DNA of 64,000 nucleotides from Candidatus Aminicenantota bacterium (GTDB lineage Bacteria > Acidobacteriota > Aminicenantia > UBA2199): NCBI GenBank assembly GCA_018262835.1, contig JADFDP010000005.1:1-64000 (forward strand). The letters run 5' to 3'. This document shows positions 3,979-11,586 of this stretch, piece after piece (within the stretch, counting starts at the first letter, position 1; every line of letters begins with the position of its first letter). The translations under genes were made by a program, and so were the position numbers. The notes beneath the pieces are model-generated. The model was not told the DNA's origin and did no database searches. It saw only the letters and a list, made by a program, of their open reading frames with translations.

Positions 3979-4041
3979 TTCAGCGGTTCACGTTGATCTA
4001 TCTGCGAGTCTACTCCTCCAGCTTGAATTCCGCAGGCTGTC

Positions 4042-5352
4042 CTAGTTTTTTGTGACCAGCCCCAGGCGAAGGCTTTTCTGAACAGAGGAGAGCAACTCTT
4101 TCGGCACTTCCTCCATGGCTGCCAGACGAGGCCATGCAGATAAAGCTGTAGCCGCTTGTTCCATGATGGCGCCCGCATTTCTGATGCCGAATTGATCGGC
4201 CACTGCCAGGAGATCCTTCTTGTTGAAATCGTCTCTTTTGCCGTTTATGCTCATTTGGTGCCGATGAGTATATTTGCCGGAAGGATTATATGCCCAGACC
4301 AAATCGAATGCCGGGCTGAGTCGCCAGCGGCCCTTGCGGTCCATGAGAAATGCGATATTGCGAGTGTGGTCGTCCTGGTTGCGGGCAAGCACATTGAAAA
4401 CCATGCGCCTGAAAAGCTCCTCCATGGCCGGGTAGCCGAGTTCGAGCCGCTGGATGACCTGCAGGGCTTGCTCGTAGCTGGTTTGGCCTGTGGCGTTGAA
4501 ATCGTAATGAGCCATGGCGCAGAGGGATTGCATGTGTATCTTGCCGCTGTCGTCGCGATCGAACCGGCGCGTCATGAAATGCGCCCGGGGACCCTCCTTG
4601 AGCAGGCGGCAGGCGGTCATTTCGATTCCGGCCTGGGTGGCCATCCGGTGATAAACGTATTCCAGCCTTCCGTAGCCTTGGGGATCCCCTAATGACGTGT
4701 CCTTCACTCCGTCGAACTTGATTATCCAAGACTCGAATCCGGGAGGAGGAAGCACTTGGCCGGAGCGCACGGCATCCGTCCTTGGATTCCAGGCGATCAC
4801 GGCTTTTGCCCTGTTGCCGCCCGCGGATGTGCCTACGCGAATAATTGTTTTCAACGCTTCCGCCTTGCTTCCTTTCAAGTTCGCCGCCCAGCCGGTCCGA
4901 TGATGCAGGATGTCAGCGGCCAACCGCGAAAGTTTTCCGATCTCGATCGGAACCGCTTTTCCCGGCCGCGGGCCGCATGCCGGCTTGAACTCGAGAGCGC
5001 CCATGGCCCGGTTTCCCATGGTGCAGAGCCTTTCCAGCGGCGTGAAGTCGGCTATAGCGCGCCCCTGACTTGACAGCCAGGCATTGATGATGGCGTTGCC
5101 GAAGCGGTCGGGCAGCGCATCGGCCAGCAGGCCAGGCAAGCGGTGGTAGGTTTCCCTTTTCAAGAGGGGGAACGAAAATATGCCGCTGCGCAAGGGCATC
5201 GTCAGGGGGGCGATATCCAGCCCCCGCTTCAGGAAGGAAGCCTCGTATTCGAACTCTCCGATATCGCGTTCCTTGTTCCAGGCCACGACGCCGGCATCCT
5301 GTTCCCATAAACGAACCCAGGCAAAGTCGACCCGTTTACCGCGCGAGGCCAT
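4042..5352 (-). CDS. hipA: HipA-family serine/threonine kinase toxin
   Basis: A 436-residue protein, the normal length for HipA. The N-terminal subdomain has LPDRFGN (residues 80-86). The kinase part has a glycine-rich SAGGNRAKA loop (176-184), the catalytic NQDDHTRN motif (325-332) and the metal-binding SPAFD (346-350). Known HipA toxins phosphorylate glutamyl-tRNA synthetase and induce growth arrest; the target here is not known. The gene follows hipB after 7 bases, with its AAGGAG ribosome site inside the end of hipB, so the pair is co-transcribed and translationally linked. All key residues are intact. Confidence 0.9.
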   Translation of the reverse strand: MASRGKRVDFAWVRLWEQDAGVVAWNKERDIGEFEYEASFLKRGLDIAPLTMPLRSGIFSFPLLKRETYHRLPGLLADALPDRFGNAIINAWLSSQGRAIADFTPLERLCTMGNRAMGALEFKPACGPRPGKAVPIEIGKLSRLAADILHHRTGWAANLKGSKAEALKTIIRVGTSAGGNRAKAVIAWNPRTDAVRSGQVLPPPGFESWIIKFDGVKDTSLGDPQGYGRLEYVYHRMATQAGIEMTACRLLKEGPRAHFMTRRFDRDDSGKIHMQSLCAMAHYDFNATGQTSYEQALQVIQRLELGYPAMEELFRRMVFNVLARNQDDHTRNIAFLMDRKGRWRLSPAFDLVWAYNPSGKYTHRHQMSINGKRDDFNKKDLLAVADQFGIRNAGAIMEQAATALSAWPRLAAMEEVPKELLSSVQKSLRLGLVTKN

Positions 5353-5359
5353 AGCTGAG

Positions 5360-5689
5360 TCACTCCTTCTTGCCGCGTTTGCTGCCGGAGCCGGAGGCTC
5401 TCTCCCTTTCCCGGCCTTTCAGCTTGGCAAGTTGCACCGGGCTTGGTCCGGTTTCGGGGAAAAAGGCGTCCAGTGAGGCCAGGCTTCCCATGGCCCTGAG
5501 GATCCTAATCAAGGATGCCAGCGTGCATGGCCGTCCCGTTTCCAAGTATTGCAATGACCGAACGGATACTCCGGACTTCGCTGCCAGCTCCGATTGAGTC
5601 ACATTGCGGTTCAGGCGTTCGCGCTGCAACCGGTTTCCCAATTCGCTCAGGATCGCTTTGTCACTCATGCTTTCCAGGTCCATGGCCAT
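5360..5689 (-). CDS. hipB: HipB-like antitoxin, XRE-family repressor
   Basis: A 109-residue protein with an XRE helix-turn-helix (about residues 13-70, including TQSELAAKSGVSVRSLQYLE) and a basic Lys/Arg-rich tail. It should neutralise the downstream HipA and repress the operon by binding palindromes upstream. ATG codons at 5689, 5683 and 5668 are in frame. The promoter position (-10 box at 5690-5695) puts the transcription start near 5683, so the real start may be 5683 with a leaderless transcript, or 5668. Confidence 0.85.
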   Translation of the reverse strand: MAMDLESMSDKAILSELGNRLQRERLNRNVTQSELAAKSGVSVRSLQYLETGRPCTLASLIRILRAMGSLASLDAFFPETGPSPVQLAKLKGRERERASGSGSKRGKKE

Positions 5690-5719
5690 AGTCTAGCAGG
5701 CGGGAGAATCAATTGTCAA
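5690..5719 (-). promoter_or_regulatory. hipBA promoter
   Basis: On the minus strand TTGACA (5714-5719), an 18-base spacer, then TAGACT (5690-5695). The predicted start of transcription is about 5683, exactly at an in-frame ATG. The first operator-like palindrome begins 10 bases upstream of the -35 box. Confidence 0.5.
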
Positions 5720-5728
5720 GTATAATAC

Positions 5729-5868
5729 GCAATATAGTGCATATTAATGGCAATATGAGGCAATAAAACGCATTTAATTGCGATTTAACAAATTTATTAA
5801 AATATTATTTAACACGCAATAAAGTGCATATAAAAGCACTTTTATGCTTATAAAGCGCAATATATTGC
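5729..5868. promoter_or_regulatory. Array of six HipB-type operator palindromes
   Basis: Six 12-base GC-N8-GC boxes resembling GCAATATATTGC lie at 5729-5740, 5750-5761, 5770-5781, 5816-5827, 5836-5847 and 5857-5868. The last is a perfect palindrome; the copies at 5729, 5770 and 5816 are close variants and those at 5750 and 5836 are more divergent. Spacings are 21, 20, 46, 20 and 21 bases, mirror-symmetric, with about two helical turns inside each triplet. Multiple operators are typical of cooperative HipB binding; the assignment to HipB is inferred from position. The rest of the 390-base gap 5690-6079 holds no gene. Confidence 0.55.
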
Positions 5869-6079
5869 ATGCAATATTCAGGACATGAAATGAATATATC
5901 AACGCGGCTGCATGCCGAGTAATATTTAAAATTCCTGGAGGGCAAAAGACCGCGGGCGGATTGCAACCTTGTTCCTGCGATTAAAAACACGAGCCCAGGG
6001 CACCCGCGCGGGGCGCTCCTGCATGGGCGGGCCAGGGAAAACAATTCGTCCTGCAAATACGTTCAATTCACATGGAGAC

Positions 6080-6349
6080 ATGATGGAACCCATTAAAAGA
6101 TCATTCAACAAGCGGGCGTTCACCGCCATCATGGCCGGGTTGACGGCCCTGACCCTGCCCTTCACGGGGCTGATCCTGCACGGCTATTCGGAAGGCGCCA
6201 TCAGCGGCGACAGGCATTTCTGGTTAATGGCCCATGTCGTTTTGGGCTTTCTTTTCGTTGTCTTCGCCGCCTGGCATGCCATAATCAACCGCCGCGCCCT
6301 GCTGAACTACATCAAGTCGGGAGTGGCCGGGGCGCTGCCGGGAAAATAA
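6080..6349 (+). CDS. Small DUF4405-type membrane protein
   Basis: An 89-residue protein with two hydrophobic helices (about residues 14-34 and 46-66) and a histidine in the second helix (AAWHAII), as in DUF4405 proteins, which resemble half of a cytochrome b561 or hydrogenase b-subunit and may bind haem. Two adjacent ATGs occur at 6080 and 6083; GGAG at 6074-6077 fits the second better. The frame is open further upstream to 5969, but there is no ribosome site there and the extra residues are Pro/Arg-rich. It stands alone and may act with a redox partner elsewhere. Confidence 0.65.
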   Translation: MMEPIKRSFNKRAFTAIMAGLTALTLPFTGLILHGYSEGAISGDRHFWLMAHVVLGFLFVVFAAWHAIINRRALLNYIKSGVAGALPGK

Positions 6350-6402: not shown

Positions 6403-6783
6403 CTAGTATTGCCGGATCCCCTCCACGTTGAAGCTCCAGTTGAATGGGGGATAGGGAGCGTGGTATTCCAGGTTGCCGTGGATGCGGTCCTCCGACACGA
6501 AGGCGCCCAGGAATTCGCAGCTCTTGCCGCCGGTGAGCGTGGATTCGAAATGGAAGACCACCTCGCCGTCGCTGACCGTGTAAGTTCCCTCGCCCTGGTT
6601 GCCGTCGATCGGGATCAGGATCCCCTTTTCACTGCCGCCCAGGAACGTGAAGGCGAATTGTTCCTCGCTGCCCAGAAGGAACGACCAGTCCCCCATGATG
6701 TTGTACTTTTCGCCCTTGCTGCATCCGGCCTGGGCCAGGAGCAGCACCAGCAGGAACGGCAGCGCGGCTTTTTTCAGTTTCAT
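6403..6783 (-). CDS. Small predicted lipoprotein
   Basis: A 126-residue protein with a lipoprotein signal peptide: KLKK, a hydrophobic core, then the lipobox LAQAGC with Cys21. The mature part (about 105 residues) is predicted beta-rich and starts with a GDWSF motif, reminiscent of small lipocalin-like or DUF-type binding domains that open with GxW. No known family is assigned. AGGTG lies 6-10 bases before the ATG. Single gene. Confidence 0.7.
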   Translation of the reverse strand: MKLKKAALPFLLVLLLAQAGCSKGEKYNIMGDWSFLLGSEEQFAFTFLGGSEKGILIPIDGNQGEGTYTVSDGEVVFHFESTLTGGKSCEFLGAFVSEDRIHGNLEYHAPYPPFNWSFNVEGIRQY

Positions 6784-6888
6784 CTTTCACCTCTCTGTAT
6801 TGGTGAATGAATTCTAGCATATTCGGGTTTTGCAAGGCAGGTTTTGGTAATCAAGATAGGAGCATGGAGGCATGACCCGGGGGCCGTT

Positions 6889-6922
6889 TAAAGTCACAAA
6901 GTCTGGCACCGTCCCCGGAATT
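6889..6922 (-). repeat. Type A dispersed repeat copy
   Basis: On the minus strand GGGGACGGTGCCAGAC followed by TTTGTGACTTT, matching the type A core and its T-rich tail. It lies in the gap 6784-7064, where nothing else is recognised. Confidence 0.7.
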
Positions 6923-7064
6923 CCAAATTTCCCGAACGCGATGTCCTGTCCGCACGCAGAAAATGACCTATAAACAAGGCATGTCGGGGAGCAATTCTTG
7001 GCATTGATTTTGCAGCAGCAAGGTATCAGCCCCCGCAAAACATGGCCTGGGGGCAGGAGGCATC

Positions 7065-7679
7065 ATGAAGCAAATCGACTGCAGGTTGGATCTATTGGCG
7101 GCTATTTTGGTTGCCGCCGTCTTCGCGGCAGGCTGCAGCAGGGTCCGGATCGAAGATTTCTCGGACCGCTCATTCAACGGTCCGCCGTTGGCCAAGATCG
7201 CGGTCGAATATTTTGAGCCTGACACGGTCAGCCGCCGCAAGGCGGAGCGGGCCTTGGTTTCGGCCTTGCAGGCGCGGTTGTCCGCGGTGGAGTTGCTGCC
7301 TATGTGCGAGGTCATTTTCACCGATGAGCGGATTTCTGACCGGGAGTATGCCGAAAAACTTTCCAGCCGGGGATTTGATGCGTTTTTAACGGTGTGCATG
7401 ACCCGCTTTGATCCAAACAACGGGACGCCGCCCATGGAGATTGACCTGCAAGACCGGGATGAGTCGCATGCGGAGGTCACTATCGACCTCAGCGGTCAAA
7501 AAAGCTGGTTTGCCTGCGAATTGGTCGAATTGAAGAGCCTGCGCTGCGTATGGCGGGCGACGGCCATCACCCATATCGGTTCGGGGCTGCGCTCGTTCCG
7601 CTCTTCCATCCGCCAGCTGGGCAGCCACCTGGCCCAAAGGCTGGCTATTCAGGACCACCTGATTTTAAACCGTTCCTGA
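7065..7679 (+). CDS. Predicted lipoprotein of unknown function
   Basis: A 204-residue protein with an N-terminal hydrophobic stretch and the lipobox VFAAGC (Cys24). The mature part starts with a VxxEDFSDRSFNG segment and then a KIAVEYFEPDTVSRRKAE segment, a pattern seen in envelope lipoproteins of the TolB-N or DUF4136 type, where a small alpha/beta domain binds a partner. A GGGGGCAGGAGG ribosome site precedes the ATG. Flanked on both sides by dispersed repeats. Family not identified. Confidence 0.7.
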   Translation: MKQIDCRLDLLAAILVAAVFAAGCSRVRIEDFSDRSFNGPPLAKIAVEYFEPDTVSRRKAERALVSALQARLSAVELLPMCEVIFTDERISDREYAEKLSSRGFDAFLTVCMTRFDPNNGTPPMEIDLQDRDESHAEVTIDLSGQKSWFACELVELKSLRCVWRATAITHIGSGLRSFRSSIRQLGSHLAQRLAIQDHLILNRS

Positions 7680-7706
7680 AAATCCGCATACTGATTTCCT
7701 GAGAAC

Positions 7707-7734
7707 ATTGGGGTCAGGTCCTGTGATATTTATG
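7707..7734 (+). repeat. Type B dispersed repeat copy, left end of a 211-base element
   Basis: ATTGGGGTCAGGTCCTG, facing an inverted type A copy that ends at 7916. Together they bracket about 210 bases with no gene, a layout repeated at 14132-14350. Confidence 0.7.
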
Positions 7735-7886
7735 TTTTAAGATGCTTGTTGTGGCCGTGCAAACATTGTTTTCATTGGTTTTTTTATTTTGACAATCTGT
7801 CCCTGATCTTCTTGCTGGGCGGTCGGTTATCGTTACTGCACTGTAGCCTGTGCTGCCTGGACTATTGCGTTAAAGGCATGATTTAT

Positions 7887-7916
7887 ACAAAATTACAGGC
7901 ACCATCCCTCAATTCC
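7887..7916 (-). repeat. Type A dispersed repeat copy, right end of the 211-base element
   Basis: On the minus strand GGAATTGAGGGATGGTGCC followed by TGTAATTTTGT. The variant tail is shared with the copy at 15281-15309. A glycosyltransferase gene remnant begins within 3 bases of it. Confidence 0.65.
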
Positions 7917-7918
7917 GC

Positions 7919-7966
7919 GAGGTCTCCCTCGATTAGATCCGGCCCGAGGTAAAACATTTCGGGTGA
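7919..7966 (+). pseudogene. Remnant of the 3' end of a GT39 glycosyltransferase gene
   Basis: Sixteen codons reading EVSLD-stop-IRPEVKHFG-stop align without gaps to the last sixteen codons of the gene at 2431-3978 (KVTLEQIWPEVKDFG-stop). The DNA match is strongest over AGATC.GGCC.GAGGTAAAA and TTTCGGGTGATT. One internal stop shows decay. Everything upstream of these codons is replaced by the repeat element. Gap 7680-8063 therefore holds an element, this remnant and the TetR promoter. Confidence 0.65.
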
Positions 7967-8017
7967 TTGTTTGGCGGGGAACAGGGGTTTGATTTTCTTC
8001 CATAGGGGCGAACAAAT

Positions 8018-8735: not shown

Positions 8736-9626
8736 ATGAAAAAACAATTCAAACTCATCGCATTGTTGCTTCTGGCAAGCACCATGGCCGCCGCGGAAGA
8801 AACAAGCACGGATTTTCCAAGACTTGCAGGTCCGTATCTTGGGCAAAAGCCTCCGGGGAAAACAGCTGAACCGTTCGCTGAAAAAATTGTAGCTGCCGAA
8901 AATAATTTTCACGGATCTGTAGTTTTTTCACCAGACGGAAATGAAGCATATTGGAGTGTGATGGAAAAAATAAGAATTATGTATTCTAAAAAAGTAAATG
9001 GAGTTTGGACAAAACCGGAACTTTTTATTCCCAGTGCTGATGTTCCGTTCTTATCTCCCGACGGAAAAAAATTATTTTATATGGAACAGAACGTTGAACA
9101 AGGAAGAAAATTTGAAGTGCCTAGCGCTATGGATAAAACCGCGACCGGATGGTCTAAAGCATATCCACTGCCGGATATCATAAATAGAATACCAATTATT
9201 CATTGGCAGATATCGGTTGATAAAAAAGGGAATCTCTTTTTTGGTGGCAAAATGAGCGGGAACCAAACATCTAGAATATATTGTGCCGAGTATGTTAATG
9301 GGGCTTACCATGAACCAAAGATGGTTACAAGTTTGAAAGACTACGAAGCTTTTTCTCCATTCATAGCTCCAGATGGAAGTTATCTGATTGTAACTGCTTT
9401 TCGAGAGGAACTTGGATTATATATTCTATTTAAAAAAGCAGACGGAACATGGGCCAAGGGGAAAAACATTTCAGAAAATATTGGAACAAGCGGTGAGCTG
9501 CTTTGCCCTATAGTAACCAGCGACGGCAAATATTTATTCTTTCTTAAAGGAGTTGGTGAAAGGACTATTCCTTATTGGGTAGATGCCTCGTTTATTGAAG
9601 AACTGAGAAAAACAGAGCAAAAATGA
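8736..9626 (+). CDS. Secreted PD40/TolB-like beta-propeller protein, paralogue 1
   Basis: A 296-residue exported protein (signal peptide MKKQFKLIALLLLAST...AA) followed by the shared motif FPRLAGPYLGQKPPG. Several PD40-type blades follow, recognised by SPDGNEAYW, SPDGKKLFY, APDGSYLIV and SDGKYLFF. PD40 propellers are found in TolB and in dipeptidyl-peptidase-like proteins, and usually bind proteins or peptides. First of three tandem paralogues. Base composition is visibly AT-richer than that of the flanking genes, suggesting acquisition from an AT-richer donor. Confidence 0.8.
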   Translation: MKKQFKLIALLLLASTMAAAEETSTDFPRLAGPYLGQKPPGKTAEPFAEKIVAAENNFHGSVVFSPDGNEAYWSVMEKIRIMYSKKVNGVWTKPELFIPSADVPFLSPDGKKLFYMEQNVEQGRKFEVPSAMDKTATGWSKAYPLPDIINRIPIIHWQISVDKKGNLFFGGKMSGNQTSRIYCAEYVNGAYHEPKMVTSLKDYEAFSPFIAPDGSYLIVTAFREELGLYILFKKADGTWAKGKNISENIGTSGELLCPIVTSDGKYLFFLKGVGERTIPYWVDASFIEELRKTEQK

Positions 9627-9640
9627 AAAGGAACAACTCA

Positions 9641-10645
9641 ATGAAAACATTAATCAAATTATTCATCTTATTACTATTGGTGAGTAATTTATCAAACGCA
9701 CAGAAAAAAGAAATAGATTTTCCAAAACTCTCTGGTCCTTATCTTGGTCAGAAGCCCCCAGGAATGATGCCTGAACTGTTTGCGCCGGGAGTTATATCAT
9801 TGGGATATCACGAACACCGGATAGCGATTTCCCCCGATGGTTCCGAAATCTATTTCCCTGTTTTCGGCAATGAGGTCGTTGCTGCCAAAATCATGTTTAC
9901 GCGCCTCGAAAATGGGAACTGGTCGACTCCATGTGTTGCTCCTTTTTCTAATAAAGGGCTTAATCTTCATCCGTCATTTTCGCCAGATGGCAACCAACTT
10001 TACTTCACATCGACACGGCCAGTAGACGAAAACAATACAAAGAAGAACAGGGCGGATATTTGGTATGTTGAGAGAATTGGTAATTCATGGTCCCAGCCAA
10101 TTCATATGGGCGATGAAGTAAATACTTCTTACAATGAGTCATGTCCATCGATAATGGCTGATGGCACCTTATTTTTTGAGTCGGCCCGAAATGAAGTGAA
10201 AAACCTTGATATTTATTTTTCTGTCCTTAAAGATGGGATACGTCAAAATGCTGAAAAATTAGGAAGCCCGGTTAATACTGAAAATTCGGAAGGAGGACCT
10301 TTCATTGCCCCGGATGGAAGTTATTTGCTGTTCAACTCAAACAGGCCTGGTACTTTTGGAGAAGACGATATCTATGTGACTTCTAAAGACAAATCGGGAG
10401 GTTGGGGCGAACCGGTTAATCTTGGAAAAAAGGTCAATTCCGCGTTTCTCGATTGGACTCCGGTAATTACTCCTGATGGCAAATATCTCATTTTTTCAAG
10501 CTATCGGAATACTGACCTGATTGTTCCTGTTGATTCCATTTATTCTGAAAAATTGAAGAAAGAAATAGGATTACCTAAAACAGGGAATGGGACATTTTAT
10601 TGGGTCTCTGCAAAAATCATTGAAAAACTTAGACCAAAAGGATAG
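9641..10645 (+). CDS. Secreted PD40/TolB-like beta-propeller protein, paralogue 2
   Basis: About 334 residues with signal peptide MKTLIKLFILLLLVSNLSNA and the shared FPKLSGPYLGQKPPG motif. Blades include SPDGSEIYF, SPDGNQLYFTS, APDGSYLLFNSNRPG and TPDGKYLIFSS. An in-frame ATG at 9623 overlaps the previous stop as ATGA. The ATG at 9641 is preferred because AAAGGAA lies 8 bases upstream and the signal peptide then matches those of the paralogues. AT-rich like its neighbours. Confidence 0.8.
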   Translation: MKTLIKLFILLLLVSNLSNAQKKEIDFPKLSGPYLGQKPPGMMPELFAPGVISLGYHEHRIAISPDGSEIYFPVFGNEVVAAKIMFTRLENGNWSTPCVAPFSNKGLNLHPSFSPDGNQLYFTSTRPVDENNTKKNRADIWYVERIGNSWSQPIHMGDEVNTSYNESCPSIMADGTLFFESARNEVKNLDIYFSVLKDGIRQNAEKLGSPVNTENSEGGPFIAPDGSYLLFNSNRPGTFGEDDIYVTSKDKSGGWGEPVNLGKKVNSAFLDWTPVITPDGKYLIFSSYRNTDLIVPVDSIYSEKLKKEIGLPKTGNGTFYWVSAKIIEKLRPKG

Positions 10646-10647
10646 CC

Positions 10648-11586
10648 ATGAAAACACGAATCAATTTGATCGCATTGTTACTTATTGTGGGTAATATTTT
10701 AGCTGCCCAGCAAACAGCAACAGAGTTTCCAAAACTTACCGGCCCCTATCTTGGCCAGAAACCTCCGGGAATGACACCGGAAATTTTTGCGCCGGGTATT
10801 GTGTCTACCAATGGATTTGAGCATAGCAAGATTGCATTTAACAAAGATGGTTCTGCTTTTTATTGGGCTGCACAGCCTGATATAAAAGGAGCCAACAGGT
10901 TTCAGCAAAAAATATGGTTTACTAAAAACAATAAAGATGGATGGAGCAACCCGAGACAATTACCGATAACACAAATTGGAGGTCAGTCCCCTACTTTTTC
11001 CCCAATAGGTGATGAAATCTTTTTTATCGGTTCTGATGATAAAGAAGTCACCGATCCTCATAACATAAAAAACAATCTTTACAAAATTGATAAAGAACAA
11101 AATCTTGTCAAAAATATTTCCGATCAATTTCCAATGCTTACAAAAAGCTGGTCTTTCGGTTTTGCAAAGAATGGGAATTTATATTTTGATTATAAGGAAA
11201 ACAATGATAAGCCATACGAGATATATTTTTTGGAATACAAAAACGGAAAATATTCCGAGCCACAAAAGATGAATGACTCAATTAACAATGGCAGCCAGAA
11301 TATTCATCCATTTATTTCTTCCGATGAAAGTTTTTTAATATTCTCTTCCTTCTGCCCTGGTGGTCATGGCATTGCTGATCTTTATATCTGTTTTAAGGAT
11401 AATACTGGTGCATGGACAGAAGCACAAAATATGGGCTCATTAATAAACACAGATATGTTAGAACGGTTCCCTTCAATTTCTCCGGATGGTAAATATTTGT
11501 TTTTTACTAGAAACAAAGGATCCGAAATAAGTGATTTTTACTGGGTCTCTGCAAAAATCATCGAAGAATTAAAACCAAAGGAGTAA
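10648..11586 (+). CDS. Secreted PD40/TolB-like beta-propeller protein, paralogue 3
   Basis: A 312-residue protein with a signal peptide ending near AAQQ, then FPKLTGPYLGQKPPG and blades such as SPIGDEIFF and SPDGKYLFFTR. It begins 2 bases after paralogue 2 with AAGGA in the preceding stop region. Its C-terminus, FYWVSAKIIEELKPKE, closely matches that of paralogue 2 (FYWVSAKIIEKLRPKG), which points to recent duplication. Function unknown; the set may form surface or periplasmic receptors. Confidence 0.8.
   Translation: MKTRINLIALLLIVGNILAAQQTATEFPKLTGPYLGQKPPGMTPEIFAPGIVSTNGFEHSKIAFNKDGSAFYWAAQPDIKGANRFQQKIWFTKNNKDGWSNPRQLPITQIGGQSPTFSPIGDEIFFIGSDDKEVTDPHNIKNNLYKIDKEQNLVKNISDQFPMLTKSWSFGFAKNGNLYFDYKENNDKPYEIYFLEYKNGKYSEPQKMNDSINNGSQNIHPFISSDESFLIFSSFCPGGHGIADLYICFKDNTGAWTEAQNMGSLINTDMLERFPSISPDGKYLFFTRNKGSEISDFYWVSAKIIEELKPKE

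Follow-up and report, generated by a model that had tools for sequence, protein, structure and literature searches.

Six GC-N8-GC boxes upstream of an Aminicenantota hipBA module as probable operators of HipB

Two adjacent minus-strand genes in the window, which is the whole 64-kb stretch of DNA from a Candidatus Aminicenantota bacterium that we analyzed, have the gene order of a hipBA module. The downstream gene, hipA (4042 to 5352), encodes a Ser/Thr kinase toxin with a full-length match to Pfam HipA_C (9.6e-52) and an N-terminal match to Couple_hipA (8.1e-16). Its kinase core motifs are present, with RNQDDHTRN and SPAFDL aligning with the catalytic and metal-binding motifs of HipT. Directly upstream, separated by 7 bp, is hipB (5360 to 5689), the gene for a helix-turn-helix (HTH) antitoxin and regulator that matches Pfam HTH_3 (2.3e-8) and the solved HipB structure 9u9g (2.7e-7). 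Gene order and kinase motifs point to a hipBA type II toxin-antitoxin module, for which toxicity and neutralization are predicted functions.

The sequence matches of HipB are solved HipB and 434 Cro structures. Its AlphaFold model, predicted with moderate confidence (mean pLDDT of 69), resembles XRE regulators, HipBs among them. No PDB structure matched the model at an E value below 0.001, and we use it solely as support for a Cro-like HTH. By sequence and predicted fold, then, HipB is a Cro-like HTH protein related to solved HipBs. Its score against NCBIfam couple_hipB (Y4mF subfamily), 35.7 bits against a curated cutoff of 71.65, marks it as a relative of that subfamily and not a member. Within named collections, relatives of this HipB come from metagenome assemblies of Candidatus Aminicenantes and Acidobacteriota.

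Translation of hipB likely starts at the ATG at 5683 (MDLESMSDKAIL), which lines up with the starts of three relatives in the genus. The best promoter, also on the minus strand, consists of a -35 element, TTGACA (5719 to 5714), an 18-bp spacer, and a -10-like TAGACT (5695 to 5690) that directly precedes the start codon in a region that aligns among the relatives. Given the position of the -10 relative to the ATG at 5683, the hipBA mRNA is possibly leaderless or nearly so. The alignment also contains a possible seventh site, a degenerate GC-N9-GC at 5685 to 5697 over the -10 and start region. It reads GC..GC in the window and in genome G012 and GT..AC in genomes G006 and G007, which amounts to one paired change only, and we regard the site as speculative.

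Upstream of the -35 element are six GC-N8-GC boxes spanning 5729 to 5868, so that several copies of a palindrome stand directly upstream of hipB, as expected of a HipB operator array. The promoter-proximal triplet comprises box 1 at 5729 to 5740 (GCAATATAGTGC), box 2 at 5750 to 5761 (GCAATATGAGGC), and box 3 at 5770 to 5781 (GCATTTAATTGC). After an AT-rich center of 34 bp (5782 to 5815), the second triplet follows with box 4 at 5816 to 5827 (GCAATAAAGTGC), box 5 at 5836 to 5847 (GCACTTTTATGC), and the distal box 6 at 5857 to 5868 (GCAATATATTGC). Direct reading thus bore out, exact to the base, the start-to-start spacings of 21, 20, 46, 20, and 21 bp given in the original prediction. Palindromy is true of the GC half-sites, while the box interiors are self-complementary only in part. 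Of the six, boxes 2 and 5 are weakest: they are degenerate in relatives and in G012, respectively, which leaves boxes 1, 3, 4, and 6 as the strong sites (41, 46, and 41 bp apart). Farther upstream, a terminator-like hairpin on the minus strand (5987 to 6009) lies between the array and a divergent DUF4405 gene.

Shuffled sequences do not reproduce the array. Between 5690 and 5900 there are eight GC-N8-GC matches, compared to a mean of 1.08 in dinucleotide shuffles, and eight were reached in none of 20,000 shuffles; the two matches beyond the six boxes, at 5760 and 5826, arise because a spacing of about 10 bp also separates the half-sites of adjoining boxes. Two triplets with 20- or 21-bp spacing appeared in none of 60,000 shuffles and one or more in only four. 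The same scan found no further triplet of this spacing elsewhere in the 64-kb window, and a sequence model of the array located a single occurrence in the 2.7-Mb draft assembly. The model also matches the reverse strand of the array itself at a lower score, reflecting its rough symmetry.

It had been proposed that dimers bound to the boxes would share one face of the DNA. This is supported within each triplet, where half-sites are in phase at about 10.2 to 10.3 bp (resultants of 0.98 and 0.93). It does not extend to all six boxes, since the 46-bp center offsets the two triplets by about 0.2 to 0.5 turn (0.23 to 0.48), depending on the helical repeat that is assumed.

Comparison with other genomes of the genus ties the array to hipBA. 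The genes hipB and hipA and the array occur together in the same 4 of 16 genomes (G000, G006, G007, and G012), and all three are absent from each of the other 12; these are draft genomes, and each single absence is uncertain. The locus in G006, whose HipB is 73% identical, has six boxes that are exact at all six start positions, with spacings of 21, 20, 47, 21, and 20 bp. In G012 (88% identical HipB), the layout is kept with three exact boxes and three in which one or two half-site bases have changed. G007 (79% identical HipB) retains the proximal half only, with boxes 1 and 3 at a 40-bp spacing and a decayed box 2. The mirror symmetry of the original prediction is therefore numerically true of the window, but it is not conserved. 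The prediction had also looked to close hipB relatives for the same array; there it is present, and the claim stands. Two side observations concern these loci. Relative to the HipA of the window, that of G006 (L073, about 6757 to 8000) is missing, in frame, some 25 residues from its N-terminal region. A hairpin-like GGGCACGGC...GCCGTGCCC, possibly a dispersed element, lies just past the array on its distal side in G012 (L002, 1220 to 1280) and G006 (L004, 1187 to 1265).

Could the array have arisen by chance or as a functionless, decayed tandem repeat? The boxes are 60 to 90% alike over 25 to 28 bp, as such a repeat would be. Set against this are the shuffle tests and the retention of the layout in relatives whose arrays are only 72 to 77% identical in sequence. 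Conservation largely refutes this explanation, which we consider extremely improbable. At the level of single columns, half-sites were not significantly more conserved than spacers across the three alignable arrays (16/24 versus 36/68; p = 0.34).

These loci are homologous at the DNA level from the hipA end to the outermost box (window positions 4024/4064 to 5871/5893); the homology stops at box 6 or within about 25 bp of it, and the flanks differ. Because the block ends at the outermost box amid differing flanks, the array travels with hipBA. In two other genomes (G002 and G015), the neighboring PMT_2 gene is present without hipBA, but other genes lie beside it and the ends of the insertion are unreadable. 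The window also encodes three successive secreted proteins that are related to each other and share the motif GPYLGQKPPG (8736 to 11586), and a relative adjoins the PMT_2 gene in G015 (L090, 3730 to 4632). The inheritance pattern of the array bears on whether another protein binds it, either a nucleoid protein or one that regulates the divergent DUF4405 gene, with the adjacency to hipBA being incidental. Architectural proteins do favor AT-rich, phased DNA, and the divergent reading frame begins near 6081. Yet the array follows hipBA across genomes with differing neighbors, is missing where hipBA is missing, and is found nowhere else in the genome, which makes a binder of this kind very unlikely.

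The association between HipB and its upstream palindromes reaches beyond the genus. Two GC-N8-GC boxes 41 bp apart precede hipB in a member of another Acidobacteriota family (G118) and in a PVC bacterium, both with HipBs about 58% identical to that of the window, and boxes at 40- to 41-bp spacing occur at three further loci (L038, L039, and L043). The distance from the proximal box to the promoter is nearly fixed: TTGACA is invariant and begins 9 bp from box 1 in all four genus members, and TTGAC is kept 10 bp downstream of the proximal box in G118 and the PVC bacterium. In the latter (L024, 3001 to 3342), the boxes and -35 element accompany a hipB that has no downstream HipA reading frame and is an orphan antitoxin or regulator.

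A second class of palindrome, TCG-N10-CGA, was found at all nine loci whose HipBs have an [SAG]KR[T] recognition helix and at 1 of 27 others (Fisher's test, 1e-7), mostly at -77 and -37 and thus 40 bp apart. The half-site thus follows the recognition helix of HipB, and a spacing of about 40 bp is common across classes. On the HipB tree, every motif class occupies a single branch, and the pattern accordingly reflects retention over deep divergence and not a large number of independent switches. No such boxes were visible upstream of three distant HipBs (L006, L007, and L040), and exhaustive counts of trinucleotide palindromes per locus were too noisy by themselves. A scan of viral contigs with HipB returned one weak locus, which added no information.

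Taken together, our results make it very probable, judging from sequence, that the six boxes are operators of the HipB encoded next to them and that they serve to autoregulate hipBA. The evidence consists of the statistical significance and uniqueness of the array, its co-occurrence and coinheritance with hipBA, the fixed distance between box and promoter, and the association of motif with recognition helix. As to the binder named by the original prediction, HipB is likely on indirect grounds: co-occurrence in 4/4 genomes, joint absence from 12/12, a homology block that ends at the distal box, and a palindrome class that follows the helix.

In the mechanism that we propose, one HipB dimer would occupy each GC-N8-GC box through two HTH half-site contacts 10 bp apart, and dimers inside a triplet would sit about two turns from each other on the same face, where they may bind cooperatively. 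Boxes 1, 3, 4, and 6 would be the strong sites, with boxes 2 and 5 acting as weaker fill-in sites. HipB probably fills the array with HipA as corepressor, perhaps bridging the triplets, and the 46-bp center may permit looping, as the original prediction suggested. Loss of HipB would relieve repression. The mode of repression is uncertain: all six boxes end upstream of the -35 element and core promoter, unlike the E. coli operators, which come within about 20 bp of the start codon. From this position, HipB would repress at the promoter's upstream edge: box 1 ends 9 bp short of the -35, and a full array would cover that edge and thereby block polymerase. Alternatively, repression may act through HipA and DNA bending.

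The same position could suit an activator. HipB might work chiefly as an activator or as a dual switch: at low occupancy it would activate from upstream of the -35, and it would repress when the array is full, like the controller proteins of restriction-modification systems. The center of box 1 is about 51 bp upstream of the inferred start, the 9- to 10-bp spacing to the -35 is fixed, and the fold matches found for the HipB model include C.Esp1396I and other controller proteins, all at E values above 0.001. However, XRE proteins in general share this kind of fold similarity, the near-consensus -35 has no obvious need for an activator, and the characterized HipB and HipBA autoregulators named here are all described as repressors (PMC3920265). 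We consider a mainly activating or dual role unlikely. A graded switch, to which we likewise assign a small chance, would combine these features: with two phased triplets offset by about half a turn and wholly upstream of a strong promoter, the strong sites would fill first and the weak middle boxes later, HipA would bridge the triplets, and activation or derepression at intermediate HipB would give way to a sharp, bistable shutoff at high HipB.

Reading the boxes as HipB operators adds Aminicenantes/Acidobacteriota to the few Proteobacteria in which HipB is known to autoregulate through multiple operators. Furthermore, it points to a general rule, open to testing across many hipBA loci, in which palindromes are mostly 40 to 41 bp apart and the half-site is set by the recognition helix of HipB. 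The half, degenerate, and full arrays form a natural series in which to study how the number of operators determines how sharply a toxin-antitoxin module switches. Our understanding of hipBA itself is unchanged.

Binding of HipB to several upstream palindromes is already known (PMC3920265; PMC10653801). In E. coli, HipB cooperatively binds four TATCCN8GGATA operators upstream of K-12-type hipBA (PMC3920265), which, in our reading of that locus, start at -134, -106, -67, and -39. The two systems share several palindromes upstream of hipB, 8-bp spacers between dinucleotide cores (CC-N8-GG there, GC-N8-GC here), and mirror-symmetric spacings with a wider center (28-39-28 there). They differ in having four versus six boxes and spacings of 28 and 39 bp versus 20 to 21 and 46 bp, and CC-N8-GG cores occur in none of the six boxes. 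The assertion that known operators are fewer and have another consensus thus holds for E. coli, but the novelty is less than it implied. Legionella HipBST also has evenly spaced inverted repeats upstream of its operon, bound by HipB; some of these are imperfect, and their motif differs from that of E. coli (PMC10653801). That array belongs to a tripartite operon and has three operators separated by 53-bp gaps, of which the main one overlaps the promoter. Controller proteins such as C.Esp1396I likewise place XRE-fold dimers on adjacent operators, but these are single compact operators without a toxin partner. New features here are the number and motif of the operators, their spacing of two turns, and their placement upstream of the core promoter, whereas mirror symmetry with a wider center already exists in the E. 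coli archetype. The array is a larger version of the E. coli layout and not a new kind of system.
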